The notes below the pieces were generated by a model. It searched no databases. It was not told the DNA's origin and was given only the letters and a program-made list of their open reading frames with translations. DNA of 64,000 nt from assembly GCF_017368815.1 (NCBI RefSeq), contig NZ_JAFNME010000003.1, forward strand, positions 62,001 through 126,000, in the 5' to 3' direction. This DNA is from Comamonas denitrificans. GTDB lineage: Bacteria; Pseudomonadota; Gammaproteobacteria; Burkholderiales; Burkholderiaceae_C. This document shows positions 1,062 through 43,322 of the stretch, one piece after another. The translations under genes and the position numbers were made by a program. The number at the start of each line of letters is the position of its first letter. The first letter of the stretch is position 1.

Positions 1062-1925
1062 TTACTGGTATTTTTTCTCCAGCGCATCCCAGATGGGCTT
1101 GTTTACCAAACGCTGGCGCTCGGCAAACGAGGCGACCAGGTTGGGGTCTTCTTGGATGTGGCCTTCGTTTTTCAGCACGCCCAGGGCGCGTTGCATGCCG
1201 GCCACCGCGCCTTGCAGGGCGGCGTTGGCGTACAGCACGATGCCGTAGCCCATTTTGGCCAGCTCTTCGGTGCTGGTGATGGGCGTTTTGCCGCCGATGA
1301 CCATGTTCATCAGCTGGGGCGTTTTCAGGCGCTGGGGCAGGGCGGCGATGTGCTCGGCGCTGGTCACGGCTTCGACAAACAGCAGGTCGGCCCCCGCCTC
1401 GGCGTATTGCTGGGCACGTTCCACCGCTGCGTCAAAACCGTGGATGGCGGCGGCATCGGTGCGGGCCATGATGATGGTGCCCTCGTTGCGGCGTGCATCG
1501 CACGCGGCCTTGATCTTGCCGATCATTTCGCTGGCTTCAATCACTTCTTTGCCGTTGAAGTGGCCGCAGCGCTTGGGGCTGACCTGGTCTTCCAGCTGGA
1601 TGCAGTCGGCCCCGGCGCGCTCTAGGGTGCGGATGGCGTGGTAGGTGTTCAGCGCGTTGCCAAAGCCGGTGTCGGCATCGACGATCAGCGGCACCTCTAC
1701 CGCGTCGCGGATGCGGGCGGTGTGGTCGGCAATGTCGGTCAGGCCCATAAAGCCTTGGTCGGGCAGGCCAAACCACATATTGGTCACGCCAGCGCCGGTC
1801 ACATAAATGGCTTCAAAGCCCATGTCGGCCACCAGGCGGGCGGACATGGCGTTGAACGCGCCGGGCACGATCACGCCGCGGCGTTGGGCGATCAGGGAGC
1901 GCAGTTGTTGTTGGGTGGTGCTCAT
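1062..1925 (-). CDS. Isocitrate lyase/PEP mutase family lyase, in the position of 2-methylisocitrate lyase
   Basis: A 287-residue (beta/alpha)8 lyase of the isocitrate lyase/PEP mutase superfamily. The metal-binding motif VDADTGFG is at residues 82-89 and the catalytic loop KRCGH at 118-122, so a C-C lyase is likely. In this cluster it should split 2-methylisocitrate to pyruvate and succinate. The sequence differs from canonical PrpB: it has [10 protein letters not shown] near the N-terminus and WFGLPDQGF where classic PrpB has the GSLGLPDLG pattern. It looks closer to the broader oxaloacetate-decarboxylase or dimethylmalate-lyase-like group. The PrpB role is inferred from context. It follows prpC by 160 bp, with a palindromic repeat in the gap. 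Confidence 0.8.
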
Positions 1926-2085: not shown

Positions 2086-3243
2086 TTACTTGCGCTCGTC
2101 GATGGGCACAAACTTCAGATCGTCCGGGCCGGTGTAGTTGGCGCTGGGGCGGATGATCTTGTTGTCGATGCGCTGCTCGATGATGTGCGCGGCCCAGCCG
2201 CTGGTGCGGGCGATCACAAACAACGGCGTGAACATGGCGGTGGGCACGCCCATCATGTGGTAGCTCACGGCGCTGAACCAGTCCAGGTTGGGGAACATTT
2301 TTTTGACTTCCCACATGACCGATTCCAGGCGCTCGGCGATGTCGTACATCTTGGTGGAGCCTGCCTCGTCCGACAGCTGCTTGGCCACGCCTTTGATGAC
2401 CACGTTGCGCGGGTCGCTGATGGTGTACACGGGGTGACCAAAGCCAATGACCACTTCCTTGCGCTCCACGCGGGCGCGGATGTCGGCTTCGGCTTCATCG
2501 GGGTTGTCGTAGCGCTTTTGGATTTCAAAAGCCACTTCGTTGGCACCGCCGTGCTTGGGGCCGCGCAGTGCGCCGATGGCGCCGGTGATGGCCGAGTACA
2601 TGTCGCTGCCCGTGCCGGCAATCACGCGCGAGGTGAAGGTGGAGGCGTTGAACTCGTGCTCAGCGTACAGGTTGAGCGAAATGTTCATGGCCTTGACCCA
2701 GCTGTCGGCGGGCTTGGCACCGTGCAGCAGGTGCAGGAAGTGGCCGCCGATGCTGTCGTCGTCGGTTTCCACTTCGATGCGGCGGCCATTGGTGCTGAAG
2801 TGGTACCAGTACAGCAGCATGGAGCCCAGCGAAGCCATCAGGCGGTCGGCGATGTCGCGTGCGCCCGCGATGTTGTGGTCGTCTTTTTCCGGCAGGGTGC
2901 AGCCCAGCACGGACACGCCGGTGCGCATCACGTCCATGGGGTGGCTGGAAGCGGGCAGCTGCTCCAGCGCCGCCTTGACGTTGGCGGGCAGGCCGCGCAG
3001 GGCCTTGAGCTTGGCTTTGTAGCCCTTGAGTTCTGCGCGGGTGGGCAGCTTGCCGTGTACCAGCAGGTGGGCGACTTCTTCAAATTCGCACTGGTCGGCC
3101 AGTTCCAGAATGTCGTAGCCACGGTAGTGCAGGTCGTTGCCGGTCTTGCCGACGGTACACAGCGCGGTGTTGCCAGCGGTCACGCCGGACAGGGCCACAG
3201 ACTTTTTGGGCTTGAAGGTGGGGGCTGCTTGTTCAGTGGTCAT
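2086..3243 (-). CDS. prpC: 2-methylcitrate synthase
   Basis: Condenses propionyl-CoA with oxaloacetate to 2-methylcitrate, the first step of the methylcitrate cycle. The 385-residue product has the citrate-synthase fold signatures [13 protein letters not shown] with its histidine, [14 protein letters not shown], and a late arginine region near the C-terminus. The short length and the absence of the N-terminal domain of GltA fit PrpC. The separate 431-residue GltA at 37.4 kb supports the split of roles. It follows prpF by 46 bp on the same strand. Confidence 0.95.
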
Positions 3244-3289: not shown

Positions 3290-4489
3290 TTATTCGAGGG
3301 TTTCGGCGGGCACGCGCACCCAGCCTTCCATCAGGATGCGGGCGCTGCGGCTCATGACCGCCTTGGTCACTTGCCACTGGCCATTCACCTGCTTGGCTTC
3401 TGCACCCACGCGCAGCGTGCCCGAGGGGTGGCCAAAACGGACGGCTTCGCGCTCACCGCCACCGGCGGCCAGATTCACCAGCGTGCCGGGCACAGCGGCG
3501 GCGGTGCCAATGGCCACGGCGCAGGTGCCCATCATGGCGTGGTGCAGCTTGCCCATGGACAGGGCGCGCACCAGCAAATCCACATCGCCCGCTTCAATGG
3601 CTTTGCCGCTGGAGGCGGTGTAGCTTTTCGGGGGGCTGACAAAGGCAATCTTGGGCGTGTGCTGGCGCTTGAGGGCTTCTTCCGGCGTTTTGATCAGGCC
3701 CATGCGCAGGGCCCCGGCGACGCGGATTTTTTCAAAGCGTTCCAGCTGCGCGGGGTCGTTGTTGATGTCTTCGCGCAGTTCGGTGCCCTGGTAGCCGATG
3801 TCGGCCGCGTTCACAAACACGGTGGGGATGCCGGCGCTGATCATGGTGGCGGGAAAGCTACCCACGCCGGGCACGTCCAGCGTATCGACCAGGTTGCCGG
3901 TGGGGAACATCGCGCCGCCGTCGTCGCCATCGTCCGAGGGGTCCATGAATTCGAGCACGATCTCGGCAGCGGGGAAGGTCACGCCGTCCAGCTCAAAATC
4001 GCCCGTTTCTTGCACCTGCCCGTTGGTGATGGGCACGTGGGCAATGATGGTTTTGCCAATGTTGGCTTGCCAGATGCGCACCACGCAGGTGCCGCTGCCC
4101 GTGCCATTACCTGGGATGCGGCTGGCATCGACCAGCCCGGCGTGAATGGCAAACGCGCCCGCAGCGGTGGACAGGTTGCCGCAGTTGCCGCTCCAATCGA
4201 CAAAGTCGGTGTTGATGGAGACTTGCCCGTAGAGGTAGTCCACGTCGTGATCGGGGCGCGTGCTTTTGGACAGGATCACGCACTTGCTGGTGCTGGAGGT
4301 GGCACCGCCCATGCCGTCGATGTGGGCGCTGTAGGGGTCGGGGCTGCCGATCACGCGCTGAAACAGCCGGTCGCGCGCGCGGCCTGGTACTTGGCAGCTT
4401 TCGGGCAGGTCTTGCAGGCGAAAGAACACGCCCTTGCTGGTGCCGCCCCGGATGTAGGTGGCAGGGATGCGAAGTTGGGGTTGTGGCAT
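3290..4489 (-). CDS. prpF: 2-methylaconitate cis-trans isomerase
   Basis: Isomerises the 2-methylaconitate made by AcnD so that it can be hydrated to 2-methylisocitrate. The roughly 399-residue product begins [20 protein letters not shown], and the [12 protein letters not shown] motif is typical of the PrpF family. An earlier ATG at 4507 lies inside a palindromic repeat and has no ribosome-binding site. The ATG at 4489 has AAAGG about 10 nt upstream and is preferred. It sits between acnD and prpC, as in other betaproteobacterial acnD-type methylcitrate clusters. Confidence 0.93.
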
Positions 4490-4505
4490 AAAGATTGAAC
4501 CTTTC

Positions 4506-4584
4506 ATAGCTTGTTGCGCTGTTAAATAAAGGGTTTCAAGGCATTAATACCTTGAAACCCTTATGTATTAAGCGGCACCAGCTA
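4506..4584. repeat. Dispersed palindromic repeat, full copy, between prpF and acnD
   Basis: Outer arms ATAGCTTGTTGCGCTG and AAGCGGCACCAGCT surround near-perfect inner arms GGGTTTCAAGG and CCTTGAAACCC. The 3' outer arm lies inside the acnD frame and encodes its last residues and stop, so the element forms the gene's end. Confidence 0.8.
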
Positions 4585-7201
4585 GGAAATCCTGCGCAAA
4601 GCGCTGCAGCACGCCGCCCGCTTCGTAGATGGATACCTCTTCCGCCGTATCCAGGCGGCAGGTCATGGGCACACGCACCACTTCGCCGTTTTTGCGCTGA
4701 ATGACCAGGGTCATGTCTGCGCGTGGGGCCAGATCGCCTTCCACGTCATAGGTTTCAGTGCCATCCAGCTGCAAGGTGTTGCGGTTGGTGCCGGGTTTGA
4801 ACTCCAGCGGCAGCACGCCCATGCCGATCAGGTTGGTGCGGTGGATGCGCTCAAAGCCTTCGGCCGCAATGGCTTCCACACCGGCCAGGCGCACGCCCTT
4901 GGCGGCCCAGTCGCGGCTGGAGCCTTGGCCGTAGTCGGCCCCGGCGACGATGATCAGCGGCTGGCGGCGGTTCATGTAGGTTTCAATCGCCTCCCACATG
5001 CGCATGACCTGGCCTTCGGGTTCGACCCGGGCGAGCGAGCCTTGTTTGACCGTGCCGTCCGGGTTTTTCACCATTTCGTTGAACAGCTTGGGGTTGGCAA
5101 AGGTGGCACGCATGGCGGTCAGGTGGTCGCCGCGGTGGGTGGCGTAGGAGTTGAAGTCCTCCTCGGGCAGGCCCATCTTGGCCAGGTACTCACCGGCAGC
5201 CGAGTCGGGCAGGATGGCGTTGGACGGCGACAGGTGGTCGGTGGTGATGTTGTCCGGCAGGATGGCCAGCGGGCGCATGCCTTTCAGGGTGCGGGGGAAG
5301 GCGGCCAGTGCGCCCACGCCCTCGGTATCCCAGTAGGGCGGGCGGCGAATGTAGGTGGAGGTGGGCCGCCAGGCGTACAGGGGCGAGGTTTTTCCCCCTT
5401 TGCTGCGGTGGATGCTGAACATGGGTTCGTACACCGCGTGGAATTGCTCGGGCTTGACGCTGGCGGCAACGATGGCATCAATCTCCGCATCGCTGGGCCA
5501 CAGGTCTTTCAGGGTGATGGGCTTGCCTTGGGCATCAAAGCCCAGCGCGTCCTGCTCGATGTCCAGGCGCACCGTGCCAGCCAGCGCGTAGGCGACGACC
5601 AGCGGGGGCGAGGCCAGGAAAGCCTGTTTGGCATAGGGGTGGATGCGCCCGTCAAAGTTGCGGTTGCCCGAGAGCACGGCGGTGGCATACAGGTCGCGGT
5701 CGATGATTTCTTGCTGAATCTTGGGATCAAGCGCACCGCTCATGCCGTTGCAGGTGGTGCAGGCGTAGGCGACGATGCCAAAGCCCAGCTTTTCCAGCTC
5801 GGGCAGCAGGCCGCTGTCTTCCAGGTACAGCTTGGCCACTTTGGAGCCGGGGGCGAACGAGGTTTTCACCCACGGTTTGCGCACCAGGCCCAGGGCGTTG
5901 GCCTTTTTGGCCACCAAGGCGGCAGCCACCACGTTGCGCGGGTTGCTGGTGTTGGTGCAGCTGGTGATGGCGGCAATGATCACCGCGCCATCGGGCATCA
6001 GGCCTTGGGCTTCTTCGCCCTTGCCCGCTTGCAGCTTGGCGGCATCGGCAATGCCGCGCTCGGCCAGATCGCTGGTGGGCAGGCGGCGGTGCGGGTTGCT
6101 GGGGCCAGCCATGTTGCGCACCACGGTAGAGAGGTCAAAGCGCAGCACGCGCTCGTACTGGGCGGTTTTCAGCGCATCGGCCCACAGGCCGGTTTCCTTG
6201 GCGTATTGCTCGACCAAGGCCACCTGGGCGGGTTCGCGGCCGGTGAGTTTCAGGTAGTCGATGGTTTGCTGGTCGATGTAGAACATCGCCGCCGTGGCAC
6301 CGTACTCGGGGCACATGTTGGAGATGGTGGCGCGGTCGCCAATGGAGAGGCTGTCGGCACCCTCGCCGAAAAACTCCACGTAAGCGCCCACTACGCGCTC
6401 TTTGCGCAGGAATTCGGTCAGCGCCAGCACGATGTCGGTGGCGGTGATGCCGGGCTGGCGCTGGCCGGTCAGCTCCACGCCGACGATGTCGGGCAGGCGC
6501 ATCATGCTGGCGCGGCCCAGCATCACGGTTTCGGCCTCCAGGCCGCCCACGCCCACGGCGATCACGCCCAGCGCATCGACGTGCGGGGTGTGGCTGTCGG
6601 TGCCCACGCAGGTGTCGGGGAAGGCCACGCCGTCGCGCAACTGGATGACAGGGCTCATTTTTTCCAGATTGATCTGGTGCATGATGCCGTTGCCCGCAGG
6701 GATTACGTCCACGTTCTTGAACGCGGTTTTGCACCAGTCGATGAAGTGGAAGCGGTCGGCGTTGCGGCGCTCTTCGACTTCGCGGTTTTTCTCGAACGCA
6801 TCGGGGTCAAAGCCGGCGTATTCCACGGCCAGCGAGTGATCGACGATGAGCTGGGTGGGCACCACCGGGTTCACCTGGGCCGGGTCGCCGCCTTGCTCGG
6901 CAATGGCATCGCGCAGACCGGCCAGATCGACCAGCGCTGTCTGGCCCAGGATGTCGTGGCAGACCACGCGGGCGGGGTACCAGGGAAAGTCCAGATCGCG
7001 CTTGCGGTAGATGAGCTGCTTGAGCGCATCGGTCAGCAGCGCCGGATCGCAGCGGCGCACCAGTTGTTCGGCCAAGATGCGGCTGGTGTAGGGCAGGCCA
7101 GCGTAAGCGCCCGGCTCAATGGCATCAATGGCGGCGCGGGTGTCGTAGTACTGCACGTCGGCAGTGCCGGGCAGGGTTTTGCGGTAGGCGTTTTGGTTCA
7201 T
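4568..7201 (-). CDS. acnD: Fe/S-dependent 2-methylisocitrate dehydratase
   Basis: Aconitase-family enzyme that dehydrates 2-methylcitrate in the methylcitrate cycle and works with PrpF. From the ATG at 7201 the product has 877 residues. The cluster cysteines are visible as SCTNTSNP (C415) and ACTTCNGMSG (C481, C484), and SRDWAAKG occurs in the C-terminal swivel domain. The frame extends to 7297 upstream, but those codons cover the operator region and are not family-like. It is the first gene of the minus-strand prp cluster, divergent from the XRE/DUF2083 regulator at 7363. Its last codons lie in a palindromic repeat. acnB at 50.4 kb is the TCA aconitase. Confidence 0.95.
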   Translation of the reverse strand: MNQNAYRKTLPGTADVQYYDTRAAIDAIEPGAYAGLPYTSRILAEQLVRRCDPALLTDALKQLIYRKRDLDFPWYPARVVCHDILGQTALVDLAGLRDAIAEQGGDPAQVNPVVPTQLIVDHSLAVEYAGFDPDAFEKNREVEERRNADRFHFIDWCKTAFKNVDVIPAGNGIMHQINLEKMSPVIQLRDGVAFPDTCVGTDSHTPHVDALGVIAVGVGGLEAETVMLGRASMMRLPDIVGVELTGQRQPGITATDIVLALTEFLRKERVVGAYVEFFGEGADSLSIGDRATISNMCPEYGATAAMFYIDQQTIDYLKLTGREPAQVALVEQYAKETGLWADALKTAQYERVLRFDLSTVVRNMAGPSNPHRRLPTSDLAERGIADAAKLQAGKGEEAQGLMPDGAVIIAAITSCTNTSNPRNVVAAALVAKKANALGLVRKPWVKTSFAPGSKVAKLYLEDSGLLPELEKLGFGIVAYACTTCNGMSGALDPKIQQEIIDRDLYATAVLSGNRNFDGRIHPYAKQAFLASPPLVVAYALAGTVRLDIEQDALGFDAQGKPITLKDLWPSDAEIDAIVAASVKPEQFHAVYEPMFSIHRSKGGKTSPLYAWRPTSTYIRRPPYWDTEGVGALAAFPRTLKGMRPLAILPDNITTDHLSPSNAILPDSAAGEYLAKMGLPEEDFNSYATHRGDHLTAMRATFANPKLFNEMVKNPDGTVKQGSLARVEPEGQVMRMWEAIETYMNRRQPLIIVAGADYGQGSSRDWAAKGVRLAGVEAIAAEGFERIHRTNLIGMGVLPLEFKPGTNRNTLQLDGTETYDVEGDLAPRADMTLVIQRKNGEVVRVPMTCRLDTAEEVSIYEAGGVLQRFAQDFLAGAA

Positions 7202-7249
7202 AAAAGGCGGTTTCTTTCTGGATGGACCGAGGAGGCTGCACAAGCTTGA

Positions 7250-7340
7250 TTTGCAATTTACGCAAAACCAGGCGCTTCTAAAACACTGAATTTGCAAAAC
7301 ATAGTAAATTGCACGTCGCTAATTTGCAAATTTTGCGAAT
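7250..7340. promoter_or_regulatory. Divergent prp promoter region with repeated TTTGC(A/G)AA operator-like sites
   Basis: Four copies of an 8-mer close to TTTGCAAA lie within 90 bp: ATTTGCAA at 7250, TTTGCAAA at 7291, TTTGCAAA at 7323 and TTTGCGAA at 7332. The last two are nearly contiguous. The stretch lies between acnD and the regulator gene. A TTTGCAAA core is also the known RamB box of Corynebacterium, and RamB has the same XRE/DUF955/DUF2083 architecture as the adjacent regulator. Confidence 0.6.
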
Positions 7341-7362
7341 TTCTACCTTGGTAAGCACGACG

Positions 7363-8802
7363 ATGTCCAAAATTTTTATGGGAGTGCGCCTGCGCTCCCT
7401 GCGCCAAGAGCGCGGCATGACGCAGGTGGCGCTGGCGCAGGCCTTGGGTATTTCGCCCAGTTATTTGAACCAGTTGGAGCAAGACCAGCGGCCGTTTACG
7501 GTGTCGGTGCTGCTGAAAGTCCACCGTGTGCTGGGGGTGGATATTCAGCAGTTTTCCGAAGACGAACAGGCGCGGCTGGTCGCCCAGCTGTCCGATGCGG
7601 TGGCCGCAGTCCCGGATCTGCCCGCCGTGCCGCAGGCCGAGCTGCGCGAGCTGGCGGCCAAGTTGCCCCAGCTGTCGCAAGCCCTGCTGGCCCTGCACCG
7701 GCGGCATCAGCAAGACACCCAGCGCCTGCACACCCTGGCCGATCGGCTCAGCCGCGTTGGCATGGATGAAGCCCCGGGCTGGGTGGACGATGCCTTGCCC
7801 CCAGGCCAGATGCCGTTTGAGGCCGTGCGTGATTTCTTTTTTGCCCACCGCAATTACTTTGACAGCCTGGATCGCGCCGCCGAGGCGCTGGCCCAGCAGG
7901 CCCAAGCCCAAGGCGGGGCGCTGCCCGAATGGCTGACCCAGCATTTGCGCCACCAGCACGGCGTGTTTGTGCTGCGCAGCGAAGCCGGTGATGCCCCCCT
8001 GCGCCGCTTTGATGCCGCCAGCCGCACCTTGCATCTGTCGGCCGATTTACAGCCCAGCCAGCAAGCCTTTCAATTGGCCACGCAGTTGGCGTTGCTGGAG
8101 CTGCAGCCGCAAATGCAAACCTTGCTGGCCACCCACCACTGGCAAGACGAGGCCACGCGCCGTCTGGCCAGCATTGGCCTGGCCAACTACGTGGCCGGGG
8201 CGCTGATCCTGCCCTATGGGCGGTTTTTGCAGGCGGCCGAAAGCCTGGGCTACGACATTGAGCTGCTGGGCCAGCGTTTTGGCGTGGGCTATGAGATGGT
8301 GTGCCACCGCCTCTCGACCCTGCAGCGCTCGGACGCGCCGGGGGTGCCGTTTTTCTTTATCCGCGTCGATCGTGCGGGCAACATCAGCAAGCGCCAGTCG
8401 GCCACGCACTTTCACTTTTCCAAGACCGGTGGCTCGTGCCCGCTGTGGAATGTGTACGAGGCCTTCGCCCAGCCCGGGCGCATCCTGCCGCAACTGGCCA
8501 GCATGCCCGATGGGCGCGTGTATCTGTGGATTGCCCGCAGCATCACCCACGAAGGGCGCGGTTGGGGCATGCCGGGCAAAACCTTTGCCATTGGCCTGGG
8601 CTGCGATGTGCAGCATGCGCAGCGGCTGGTGTATTCCAAGGGACTGGATTTGCGCAACCTGCAGGCGGCCACCCCCATTGGCATGGGCTGCAAGGTGTGC
8701 GAGCGCACCGCTTGTCCGCAGCGGGCGTTTCCCTTCACGGGCAAACCGCTGCGGGTCAATACCGATGAGAGCAGCTTTGTGCCGTACGGCGTGGGACAGT
8801 GA
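7363..8802 (+). CDS. XRE-family transcriptional regulator with DUF955/DUF2083-type domains (methylcitrate regulator)
   Basis: The 479-residue product has an N-terminal XRE helix-turn-helix at about residues 6-66 (LRSLRQERGMTQ...ISPSYLNQLEQ). A middle region resembles a degenerate IrrE/ImmA-like (DUF955) domain. The C-terminal domain has FHFSKTGGSCPLWNV and GMGCKVCERTACPQRAFP, typical of the short-chain fatty acyl-CoA regulator family (RamB, MccR/ScfR types). Divergent placement from acnD-prpF-prpC points to control of propionate catabolism, probably sensing an acyl-CoA. The start at 7363 is chosen because upstream codons fall in the operator region; no strong ribosome-binding site is seen. 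Confidence 0.88.
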   Translation: MSKIFMGVRLRSLRQERGMTQVALAQALGISPSYLNQLEQDQRPFTVSVLLKVHRVLGVDIQQFSEDEQARLVAQLSDAVAAVPDLPAVPQAELRELAAKLPQLSQALLALHRRHQQDTQRLHTLADRLSRVGMDEAPGWVDDALPPGQMPFEAVRDFFFAHRNYFDSLDRAAEALAQQAQAQGGALPEWLTQHLRHQHGVFVLRSEAGDAPLRRFDAASRTLHLSADLQPSQQAFQLATQLALLELQPQMQTLLATHHWQDEATRRLASIGLANYVAGALILPYGRFLQAAESLGYDIELLGQRFGVGYEMVCHRLSTLQRSDAPGVPFFFIRVDRAGNISKRQSATHFHFSKTGGSCPLWNVYEAFAQPGRILPQLASMPDGRVYLWIARSITHEGRGWGMPGKTFAIGLGCDVQHAQRLVYSKGLDLRNLQAATPIGMGCKVCERTACPQRAFPFTGKPLRVNTDESSFVPYGVGQ

Positions 8803-8929: not shown

Positions 8930-10254
8930 ATGGACCGCATCAACAACTTCAACCGCCGGGACTGGCTCAAGCTGCTGACGGCGGGTGCCGCCGCCGCTTG
9001 CGCCACGCACAGTGCCCAGGCCCAGGCAGCGCAGCCGGTCAAGACGGCTGCTCGCATCGTGATTGCGGGGGCCGGGGCGGCGGGGTTGGCGGCGGCTTCG
9101 CGTCTGGCGCAGCAGTTGTCGGGTGCCCAAATTACGCTGGTGGACGCGCGCAAAGAACACTATTACCAGCCTGGTTTTACCCTGGTGGGCGCGGGCATCA
9201 AACCGGCGGACTATGTGGTGTCACAAACGGGCAGTTATGTGCCCTCTGGGGTGCAGTGGGTGCAAGAGCGCGTCACCGAGATCGACCCCGAGGGCAACAA
9301 GGTGGTTACGCAATCGGGCCAGGTGCTGCCGTATGACTTTTTAATAGTCGCCACCGGCCTGCAGCTGGAATATGGCCGCATCGAAGGCATGGAGCCGGGC
9401 CTGATTGGCCAGCATGGCATTGGCAGCATCTACAACGGCCCGGATGCCGCAGCCGCCACCTGGGGCTTGATGAGCCAGTTTGCCACCCAGGGCGGACGCG
9501 GCGTGTTCACCCGCCCTGGCACCGAGATGAAGTGCGCCGGTGCGCCGCTCAAATACACCTTTCTCAGCGAAGACCGCGCCACGCGCCAGGGCGGACGCAG
9601 CAAGGCAGAGTTTGTTTATTTCTCGAACAACGCGGCCTTGTTCAGCGTGCCCATCGTCTCGGAGAGAAGGTGCGCATGCTATTCAAAGAGCGCAACATCC
9701 AAACCCAGTACCACCGGGTGCTGACAGCCATTGACCCCGGCAAACGCATTGCCACTTTCAAGACCCAAGAGGGCACCGAAGAGCAGAACTGGGACTTCAT
9801 TCACATCATCCCGCCCATGCTGGCCCCAGAAGCCGTGCGCAACAGCCCTTTGCCCTGGCAAAGCGGTAACTGGGCTGCCGAGGGCTGGATGGAGGTGGAC
9901 AAAGGCACGCTGCGCCACGTGCGCTACCCCAACGTCTTTGGTGTGGGCGACATTGCCGGCGTGCCCAAGGGCAAGACGGCGGCCAGCGTGAAGTGGCAGG
10001 TGCCGGTGGCCATCGATCACTTGGTGGCCGATATTCAGGGCAAGCAGTCCGATGCGCGGTACAACGGCTACACCTCCTGCCCCCTGATCACCCGCCTAGG
10101 CCAGGCCATGCTGGTGGAGTTTGATTACGAAAATAATCTCACGCCCTCCTTCCCCGGGGTCATTGCGCCGCTGGAGGAGCTGTGGATCAGCTGGGTCATG
10201 AAGACCATGGCCCTCAAGCCCACCTACATCAGCATGCTGCGTGGTCAGGCTTGA
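8930..10254 (+). pseudogene. Tat-exported FAD/NAD(P)-binding oxidoreductase, sulfide:quinone reductase-like, frameshifted
   Basis: The first frame (8930 to about 9663) encodes a twin-arginine signal (NRRDWLKLL, then Ala-rich to AQAQA), a GxGxxG dinucleotide site (RIVIAGAGAAGLAAASRL) and an SQR-like core with EHYYQPGFTLVGAG and FLIVATGLQLEYG. At the GAGAGA run at 9662-9667 the reading shifts to the next frame, which continues with EKVRMLFKERNIQTQYH through YPNVFGVGDIAGVPKGKTAASVKWQ to the stop at 10254. Removing 2 nt would give one 440-residue protein. Either it is a true recent pseudogene or a sequencing slip. The start has AGGAGA 6 nt upstream. A small membrane protein follows. Confidence 0.85.
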
Positions 10255-42527: not shown

Positions 42528-43322
42528 TTAACTTAATGCATTGCGGTAGTGGTGGCTGTCGGTCAAATACAGGCCCCGGCGCAGTTCCATGGGCTTGTCG
42601 TTGTAGGTGAAGGTGACACGTTCGACGCTTAAGACGGGTGTTGCCGTTGTGGTGTTAAGCCATTGGGCTTGCTGCGCATCGGGCAGGACGGCACGGATTT
42701 TTTCTTCTGCACGCACCATGCGCACCCCATATTCCATTTCAAACATGGCATAGGTGGGGCCGGGGTAATGGGCCATTTGCTCAGCGTTGAGGCCTTTGAA
42801 GACGGGGCTGGGCAGCCAAATGTCTTCCAAAATGGTGGGCGTGTTGTTAAAAGAAAGTATGCGGCGCACATGGATGACGCTGTCGCCAGTGCGCAATTGC
42901 AGTGTGCGGGCAATGTCGGCGCTGGCACGAATGCGTTTGCATTCGATGATGCTGCGCTGGGCGCGCCCTTCATCTTGCTGTTGGCCAATGTCGGGATGCA
43001 GTTGCAAAAAGCGGTATTGCACCTGCTCTTCATTGTGTGTGGCGACAAAAGTGCCTTTGCCTTGGCGGCGGGTTACCAAGTTTTCTGCGGCCAATTCATC
43101 AATGGCTTTGCGCACTGTGCCCTGACTGACCTTGAAGCGGCCAGCCAACTCGATTTCGCTGGGGATGAGCTCGCCCGGTTTCCACTCTCCCGCTTGCAAG
43201 CTTTGCAAAATCAGGCCTTTGATTTGTTGGTACAAGGGACTGAAGGCGGGCGTTTGCACCACCGCGCTGTCGTTGCGCGCAGGGGTTGGGGTGTCGGGGG
43301 AAAGGGCGGTATTGGGAGGCAT
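42528..43322 (-). CDS. GntR/HutC-family transcriptional regulator of the TCA gene cluster
   Basis: The 264-residue regulator has an N-terminal winged helix (LYQQIKGLILQSLQAGEWKP, then LIPSEIELAGRFKVSQGTVR) and a C-terminal UTRA effector domain (GLNAEQMAHYPGPTYAMFEM, VLSVERVTFTYNDKPMELRR) of the HutC type. It is directly upstream of sdhC. The palindromic site 71 bp upstream is repeated exactly before mdh, which suggests it controls gntR-sdh-gltA and mdh. The ligand is not known but should be a small carboxylate or related molecule. Confidence 0.9.
   Translation of the reverse strand: MPPNTALSPDTPTPARNDSAVVQTPAFSPLYQQIKGLILQSLQAGEWKPGELIPSEIELAGRFKVSQGTVRKAIDELAAENLVTRRQGKGTFVATHNEEQVQYRFLQLHPDIGQQQDEGRAQRSIIECKRIRASADIARTLQLRTGDSVIHVRRILSFNNTPTILEDIWLPSPVFKGLNAEQMAHYPGPTYAMFEMEYGVRMVRAEEKIRAVLPDAQQAQWLNTTTATPVLSVERVTFTYNDKPMELRRGLYLTDSHHYRNALS

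Follow-up and report, generated by a model that had tools for sequence, protein, structure and literature searches.

PrpR (Rv1129c) of M. tuberculosis activates prpDC and icl1 and represses ramB (PMC3420887). Its DNase I footprint covers a perfect and an imperfect 8-bp palindrome, TTTGCAAA and TTTGCgAA, with one base between them (PMC3420887; also PMC6765138), and its [4Fe4S] cysteines and CoA-stacking residues have been named (PMC6765138). RamB of C. glutamicum, a member of the same domain family, acts mostly by repression in acetate metabolism, with sites of the type (A/G)A-ACTTTGCAAA that contain the TTTGCAAA core (PMC4448153). RamB of Paracoccus activates its target, and two nearly identical boxes are common at the sites of ScfR regulators (PMC10370305). 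Both the motif and the two-box rule are already in print for the ScfR family (PMC3420887, PMC6765138, PMC10370305, PMC4448153), and an earlier description of the motif itself in proteobacteria is likely. The original prediction, which regarded a motif shared across phyla as an unusually conserved operator, does not hold in this respect: two-box ScfR sites are common (PMC10370305), and a shared motif is expected if regulator and operator are inherited or transferred together. For a phased, promoter-embedded array of three operators, no description was found in the titles and abstract openings of the matches listed on MccR and methylcitrate, PrpQ and propionate, and the acnD/prpC arrangement; by title, none of the PrpQ papers listed concerns this MccR/PrpR-type regulator.

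The window, a stretch of 64,000 nucleotides from Comamonas denitrificans, carries a regulator that resembles PrpR in family, in domain plan, in the cluster and CoA residues, and in its divergent position beside methylcitrate-cycle genes. One of its operators, R, has the same two-box layout with a 1-bp spacer as the PrpR operator of prpDC (PMC3420887, PMC6765138). However, a single 17-bp site is described at prpDC in these sources, whereas the window contains three two-box operators (L, M and R) at fixed spacing, one of them over the putative -10 element, and its operon uses acnD-prpF, unlike the M. tuberculosis prpDC system. The C. glutamicum RamB site is a 13-bp single motif (PMC4448153), in contrast to the two-box pairs of the window, and the window protein scores under the RamB equivalog cut-off. 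RamB class 2 of Paracoccus and PccR of Rhodobacter belong to the same family as the window regulator and use two-box sites, but the RamB class 2 boxes lie 18 bp apart, compared with the 9-bp pairs here (PMC10370305). The PccR and RamB class 2 rows also occupy branches separate from the window regulator in a 34-row tree, and nine regions beside pccB, aceB or icl (L084, L134-L141) stay below the threshold for a 9-bp pair.

The regulator and its neighbouring genes

The regulator gene P0001 (7363..8802, plus strand) encodes a protein of 479 aa consisting of an HTH_3 domain at the N-terminus, an IrrE-like Peptidase_M78 domain and the ScfRs C-terminal domain PF09856 (235 bits, cut-off 24), all above their cut-offs. 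Its closest solved relatives are the PrpR chains of M. tuberculosis (E about 1e-116). Cys359, Cys443, Cys446 and Cys451 align with the [4Fe4S] cysteines (C-X2-C-X4-C plus one more, numbering matched by hand), and Phe236 and His315 correspond to the two CoA-stacking residues of PrpR, both kept (offset worked out by hand). The RamB equivalog NF038139 gives 573.5 bits, less than its curated cut-off of 700. In the tree of 34 author-chosen rows, the window protein falls within a 24-row branch (100/98) made up of 16 prp-linked, four actinobacterial and four unlabelled rows, and the PccR and alphaproteobacterial RamB rows form other branches. Inside this branch, a Nocardia regulator divergent from prpD sits among proteobacterial rows, where the inner forks are weak. 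From its domains and tree position, the window regulator is assigned to the MccR/PrpR branch of ScfR proteins and not to RamB. PrpR/MccR is closer because the RamB score is below the cut-off and because of the placement in the tree, and on both counts RamB is ruled out as the nearest relative. The comparison with RamB drawn in the original prediction remains valid for the family and for a motif known from actinobacteria, and PrpR/MccR takes its place as the nearer relative.

The regulator gene is divergent from the methylcitrate-cycle genes acnD, prpF and prpC, all on the minus strand and all above their cut-offs: acnD (4568..7201), encoding the Fe/S-dependent 2-methylisocitrate dehydratase (TIGR02333, 1759 bits), prpF (3290..4507; TIGR02334, 748 bits) and prpC (2086..3243), encoding 2-methylcitrate synthase (NF009006, 736 bits). 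These are followed by a prpB-like gene of the methylisocitrate lyase family (1062..1925, minus strand), whose best match, TIGR02317, reaches 282 bits and stays under the cut-off of 354. The genome of the window organism has one ScfR gene; in the family sample such a gene is present in 38 of 150 genomes, and in the class sample in 6 of 274, five of them above the cut-off. Beyond the regulator gene, at 8930-10254, a sulfide:quinone reductase-like gene is seemingly split into the overlapping frames 8930-9724 and 9532-10254, the first part aligning to positions 2-202 of a 406-position model, far under the cut-off.

Paired boxes in the control region and in orthologous loci

Between the start codons of the divergent genes (acnD ATG at 7201, minus strand; regulator ATG at 7363, plus strand) lies a gap of 161 bp (7202-7362) with 42% G+C. 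It contains five near-copies of TTTGC(A/G)AA: TTTGCAAT at 7250, TACGCAAA at 7259, TTTGCAAA at 7291 and again at 7323, and TTTGCGAA at 7332. Four near-copies had been predicted between acnD and the regulator; all four are present, and the fifth, TACGCAAA at 7259, had been overlooked. Over the whole window the word is not enriched, either as exact TTTGCRAA (10 found, shuffle mean 9.73) or with one mismatch (40 found, shuffle mean 48.6). Among 5000 dinucleotide shuffles of the gap, at least five near-copies appear in four and at least three exact copies in none. The densest 91-bp cluster in 100 shuffles of the whole window holds two near-copies in 60, three in 39 and four in one, compared with the five observed. 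What is unusual about TTTGC(A/G)AA is only its clustering, not its frequency in the window.

The unit of the array is not the single site, as originally supposed, since the boxes pair into three operators of two boxes each, of which one is degenerate in the window. Operator R (7323..7339, plus strand) reads TTTGCAAA-T-TTTGCGAA, two TTTGC(A/G)AA boxes 1 bp apart, which matches the arrangement footprinted for PrpR in M. tuberculosis. Operator L (7250..7266, minus strand) is a second pair, with one mismatch to the two-box form TTTGCRAANNTTGCRAA, composed of TTTGCAAT (7250-7257) and TACGCAAA (7259-7266). On the prp strand it reads TTTGCGTA-A-ATTGCAAA, and its place and form are kept in orthologues. 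Operator M (7291..7308, plus strand), located between the other two, joins the box TTTGCAAA (7291-7298) to a degenerate second box, ATAGTAAA (7301-7308); its consensus in 77 orthologue rows is TTGGCGAA-TG-ATTGCGAA. The neighbouring regulator of the propionate pathway very probably binds at these TTTGC(A/G)AA boxes.

In the 3.0-Mb genome, the mismatch-free form TTTGCRAANNTTGCRAA occurs once, at 7323. Six rows show one mismatch, one being the other strand of the 7323 site and one the site at 7250. With up to two mismatches, 52 rows are found, compared with 39 for a reversed control pattern, so that loose two-box matches are mostly background. A wider regulon was considered and rejected: the genome scan gives no second mismatch-free site, and the two further one-mismatch sites of the window, at 43193 and 43647, both lie inside open reading frames.

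The locus set comprises the best 80 of 400 relatives found, 31 further loci from the family and class samples, 16 plasmid loci chosen by the authors from at least 60 matches, and the window, and it leans heavily to Comamonadaceae. Its 128 upstream regions become 115 once near-identical ones are removed. With a pair defined as two boxes 9 bp apart scoring at least 14/16, 98 of the 115 de-duplicated ScfR upstream regions carry a pair, compared with 11 of 2300 shuffles. The motif was expected in orthologous prp promoters, a check set beforehand, and it is found there; the pairs in these promoters support the proposal that the boxes are operators of the adjacent XRE / Peptidase_M78 / ScfR regulator. 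The 17 regions without a pair include ten beside pccB, aceB or icl (L131 and the nine named above). In L003 and L005 no pair lies close to the regulator, the operators being located further upstream; L057, L068 and L133 are prp-linked yet have no 9-bp pair at the threshold, and L083 and the Nocardia locus L132 are also below it.

The pairs are confined to a narrow region. In 80 loci (1.245 Mb), 116 of the 121 plus-strand pairs fall within 200 bp upstream of a regulator start, and the remaining five are L or R sites of acnD-regulator control regions in L003, L005 and L004, in L004 just beyond the 200 bp. In L003, L and R adjoin acnD, 2.9 kb from a regulator that has no upstream pair; L and R stay with acnD there and therefore appear to serve prp. 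At L003:5085-7946, a cassette that by eye resembles a GntR-type regulator with an ABC transporter separates the regulator gene from the prp operators.

The control group consists of all seven family genomes with AcnD at a minimum of 58% identity and no ScfR match, 32 of the 39 genomes with such an AcnD having ScfR. The seven acnD stretches from these genomes without a detected ScfR (126 kb) contain no pair on either strand. In four of them prpC lies beside acnD; three have no prpC match, two of these with AcnD at 58% only, and one of the seven has a sigma-54 PrpR. Four Nocardia and Streptomyces stretches contain no pair at 14/16 with spacings of 8-25. The one actinobacterial prp gap read, the Nocardia prpD gap (L153), has a weaker pair, 13/16 by eye and below the threshold of 14.

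Array geometry and the predicted prp promoter

In the usual array, the operators follow one another as L-42 bp-M-32 bp-R. The distance from M to R is exactly 32 bp in 81 of the 95 prp-linked regions, and that from L to M is 42 bp in 65 of them, the window being included in both totals with its own spacings of 32 bp (M to R) and 41 bp (L to M). In eight further prp-linked regions the scan picked a pair 9 bp upstream; by eye, seven of these have TTCGCAAT and ACGCA at the usual position, L057 being the exception. Altogether, 18 of the 95 regions are outside the canonical array. Because 25 positions were searched for M and 40 for L, the chance rate of any one offset is about 4% of rows for M and 2.5% for L. 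Five alphaproteobacterial rows (L062, L064, L065, L075, L077) show spacings of 32 and 40-42. Taking 10.5 bp per turn, spacings of 32 and 42 bp correspond to 3.0 and 4.0 turns, and L, M and R, being about three and four helical turns apart, would face the same side of the DNA. The distance from R to the regulator start varies from 18 to 148 bp.

A consensus promoter scan of the gap finds none. The promoter profile was built from 77 rows chosen by geometry (M to R 32, L to M 40-43), and its counts are conditioned on that choice. In these rows, the L consensus on the prp strand is TTTGCG-TAnATT-GCGAA, with the -10-like TAnATT present within L in 67 of the 77. At box position 7, one L box has a T in 69 of 77 rows, the other L box in none, and each M or R box in at most four. 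By departing from the operator consensus, this T creates the -10-like hexamer in L. The putative -10 element of the prp (acnD) promoter in the window is TAAATT (7255..7260, minus strand), inside L, as indicated by the anchored profile. A weak candidate -35 element, TTTAGA (7277..7282, minus strand), is located 16 bp from it, the usual geometry being 17 bp. A conserved element, A-N3-CTGAA (7282..7290, plus strand), abuts operator M; in the canonical-geometry rows its CTGAA is kept in 66 of 77, and its A, at M1-9, is invariant (77/77) and would be the first T of the -35 hexamer 17 bp away. The element brackets the putative -35 on the prp strand.

Among single -10 registers, the anchored profile scores highest for one within L on the prp strand (mean 3.74/6, next 3.26). 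Together, the -35 and -10 of the predicted promoter average 6.40/12, which is weak against the consensus. A rival minus-strand register, in the M and R boxes, is slightly higher (6.51 versus 6.40 of 12), and plus-strand registers reach 6.39 and 6.14, the 6.14 one with 28 of 77 rows at 8/12 or more. L is apparently built into the prp promoter itself.

In 49 of the 77 rows, including L011, the prp operon begins with a gene of the hotdog (acyl-CoA thioesterase-like) kind, named from annotation; this gene is not in the window, where acnD comes first. In 44 of the 49 thioesterase-first rows, a long frame opens with an ATG 1-3 nt past L, equivalent to 6-8 nt past TAnATT. The same placement occurs in 6 of 22 prpC-first rows, and in the acnD-first rows (the window and three near relatives) the ATG is 47-51 nt past L. 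Because an ATG at 1-3 nt past L and 6-8 nt past TAnATT leaves no room for a ribosome-binding site, the prp mRNA of the thioesterase-first loci is predicted to be leaderless.

Proposed control and alternative readings

The gap probably serves as a common control region for the prp (2-methylcitrate cycle) operon and the divergent regulator. By homology to M. tuberculosis PrpR, the regulator would be a tetramer with a [4Fe4S] cluster, sensing a short-chain acyl-CoA such as propionyl-CoA. It would act on all three two-box operators, of which R and M lie upstream of the prp core promoter and L lies at it. With the start taken as the base before the ATG in the usual geometry, the operator centres would be positioned at about -52 (M), -84 (R) and -10 (L); in the window, the acnD transcript would begin near 7247. 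Occupation of M and R would activate the weak prp promoter; occupation of L, which overlaps the putative -10, would cause repression or autoregulation, or would serve the regulator's own promoter. We consider it reasonably likely that an MccR/PrpR-type ScfR regulator binds L, M and R in this manner, activating the weak prp promoter from M and R and using L for repression or autoregulation. Activation from M and R is preferred because the relatives PrpR and Paracoccus RamB activate their main targets; it is not assured, because PrpR represses ramB and C. glutamicum RamB mostly represses. For an operator on the -10 element, repression fits at least as well as activation.

The main rival retains the same regulator and operators as a repressor array, in which tetramers on L, M and R, perhaps bridging, would block the polymerase at both divergent promoters until an acyl-CoA or another intermediate releases them. 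The overlap of L with the putative -10 is consistent with such a block, three in-phase operators suit bridging, and repression by PrpR at ramB and by C. glutamicum RamB in general provides precedents. We nevertheless regard this as rather unlikely, given the activation of prpDC and icl1 by PrpR, the activation by Paracoccus RamB, and a predicted prp core promoter that is weak (mean 6.4/12), as expected of an activated promoter. Sites serving only the regulator's own promoter, with prp controlled otherwise, would account for the closeness of R to the regulator start (18-148 bp). Such pure autoregulation is very improbable in view of L003, where the operators remain by acnD with the regulator 2.9 kb off and lacking an upstream pair, and of the thioesterase-first rows, in 44 of 49 of which L adjoins the start codon of the first divergent gene.

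It is slightly harder still to maintain that some other protein binds the boxes, its sites merely accompanying the regulator gene: the boxes match the PrpR footprint, the seven ScfR-less acnD stretches contain no pair, and ten of the 17 sub-threshold regions neighbour pccB, aceB or icl, where the ScfR proteins are of other classes. That an A/T-rich word clustered in this intergenic gap by chance would agree with its lack of enrichment over the whole window, but is virtually ruled out by the gap shuffles, just 4 of 5000 matching, and by the retention of the boxes in orthologues.

A broader proposal is offered tentatively. In many betaproteobacteria and some alphaproteobacteria, the prp promoter may be one conserved module of three phased MccR operators, with the downstream operator also acting as the -10 and a leaderless mRNA that begins no more than one or two bases from the first start codon. 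One array would then control polymerase recruitment, promoter access and its own gene, and the regulator may have been transferred between phyla along with its operators. An operator footprinted in a mycobacterium is extended here, with comparative controls, to prp clusters of the Comamonadaceae, and exact testable positions are provided for the three operators, the promoter and, in relatives, the predicted leaderless start. The position of a site relative to the -10 could explain the existence of activating and repressing ScfR members, and the array might double as a propionate-responsive promoter part.

On the Comamonas aquatica plasmid p1_SCLZS63 (L126), acnD, prpC and the ScfR gene have as neighbours genes whose annotation is conjugal transfer and integrating conjugative element proteins, a setting that represents a possible route of transfer for the prp cluster.
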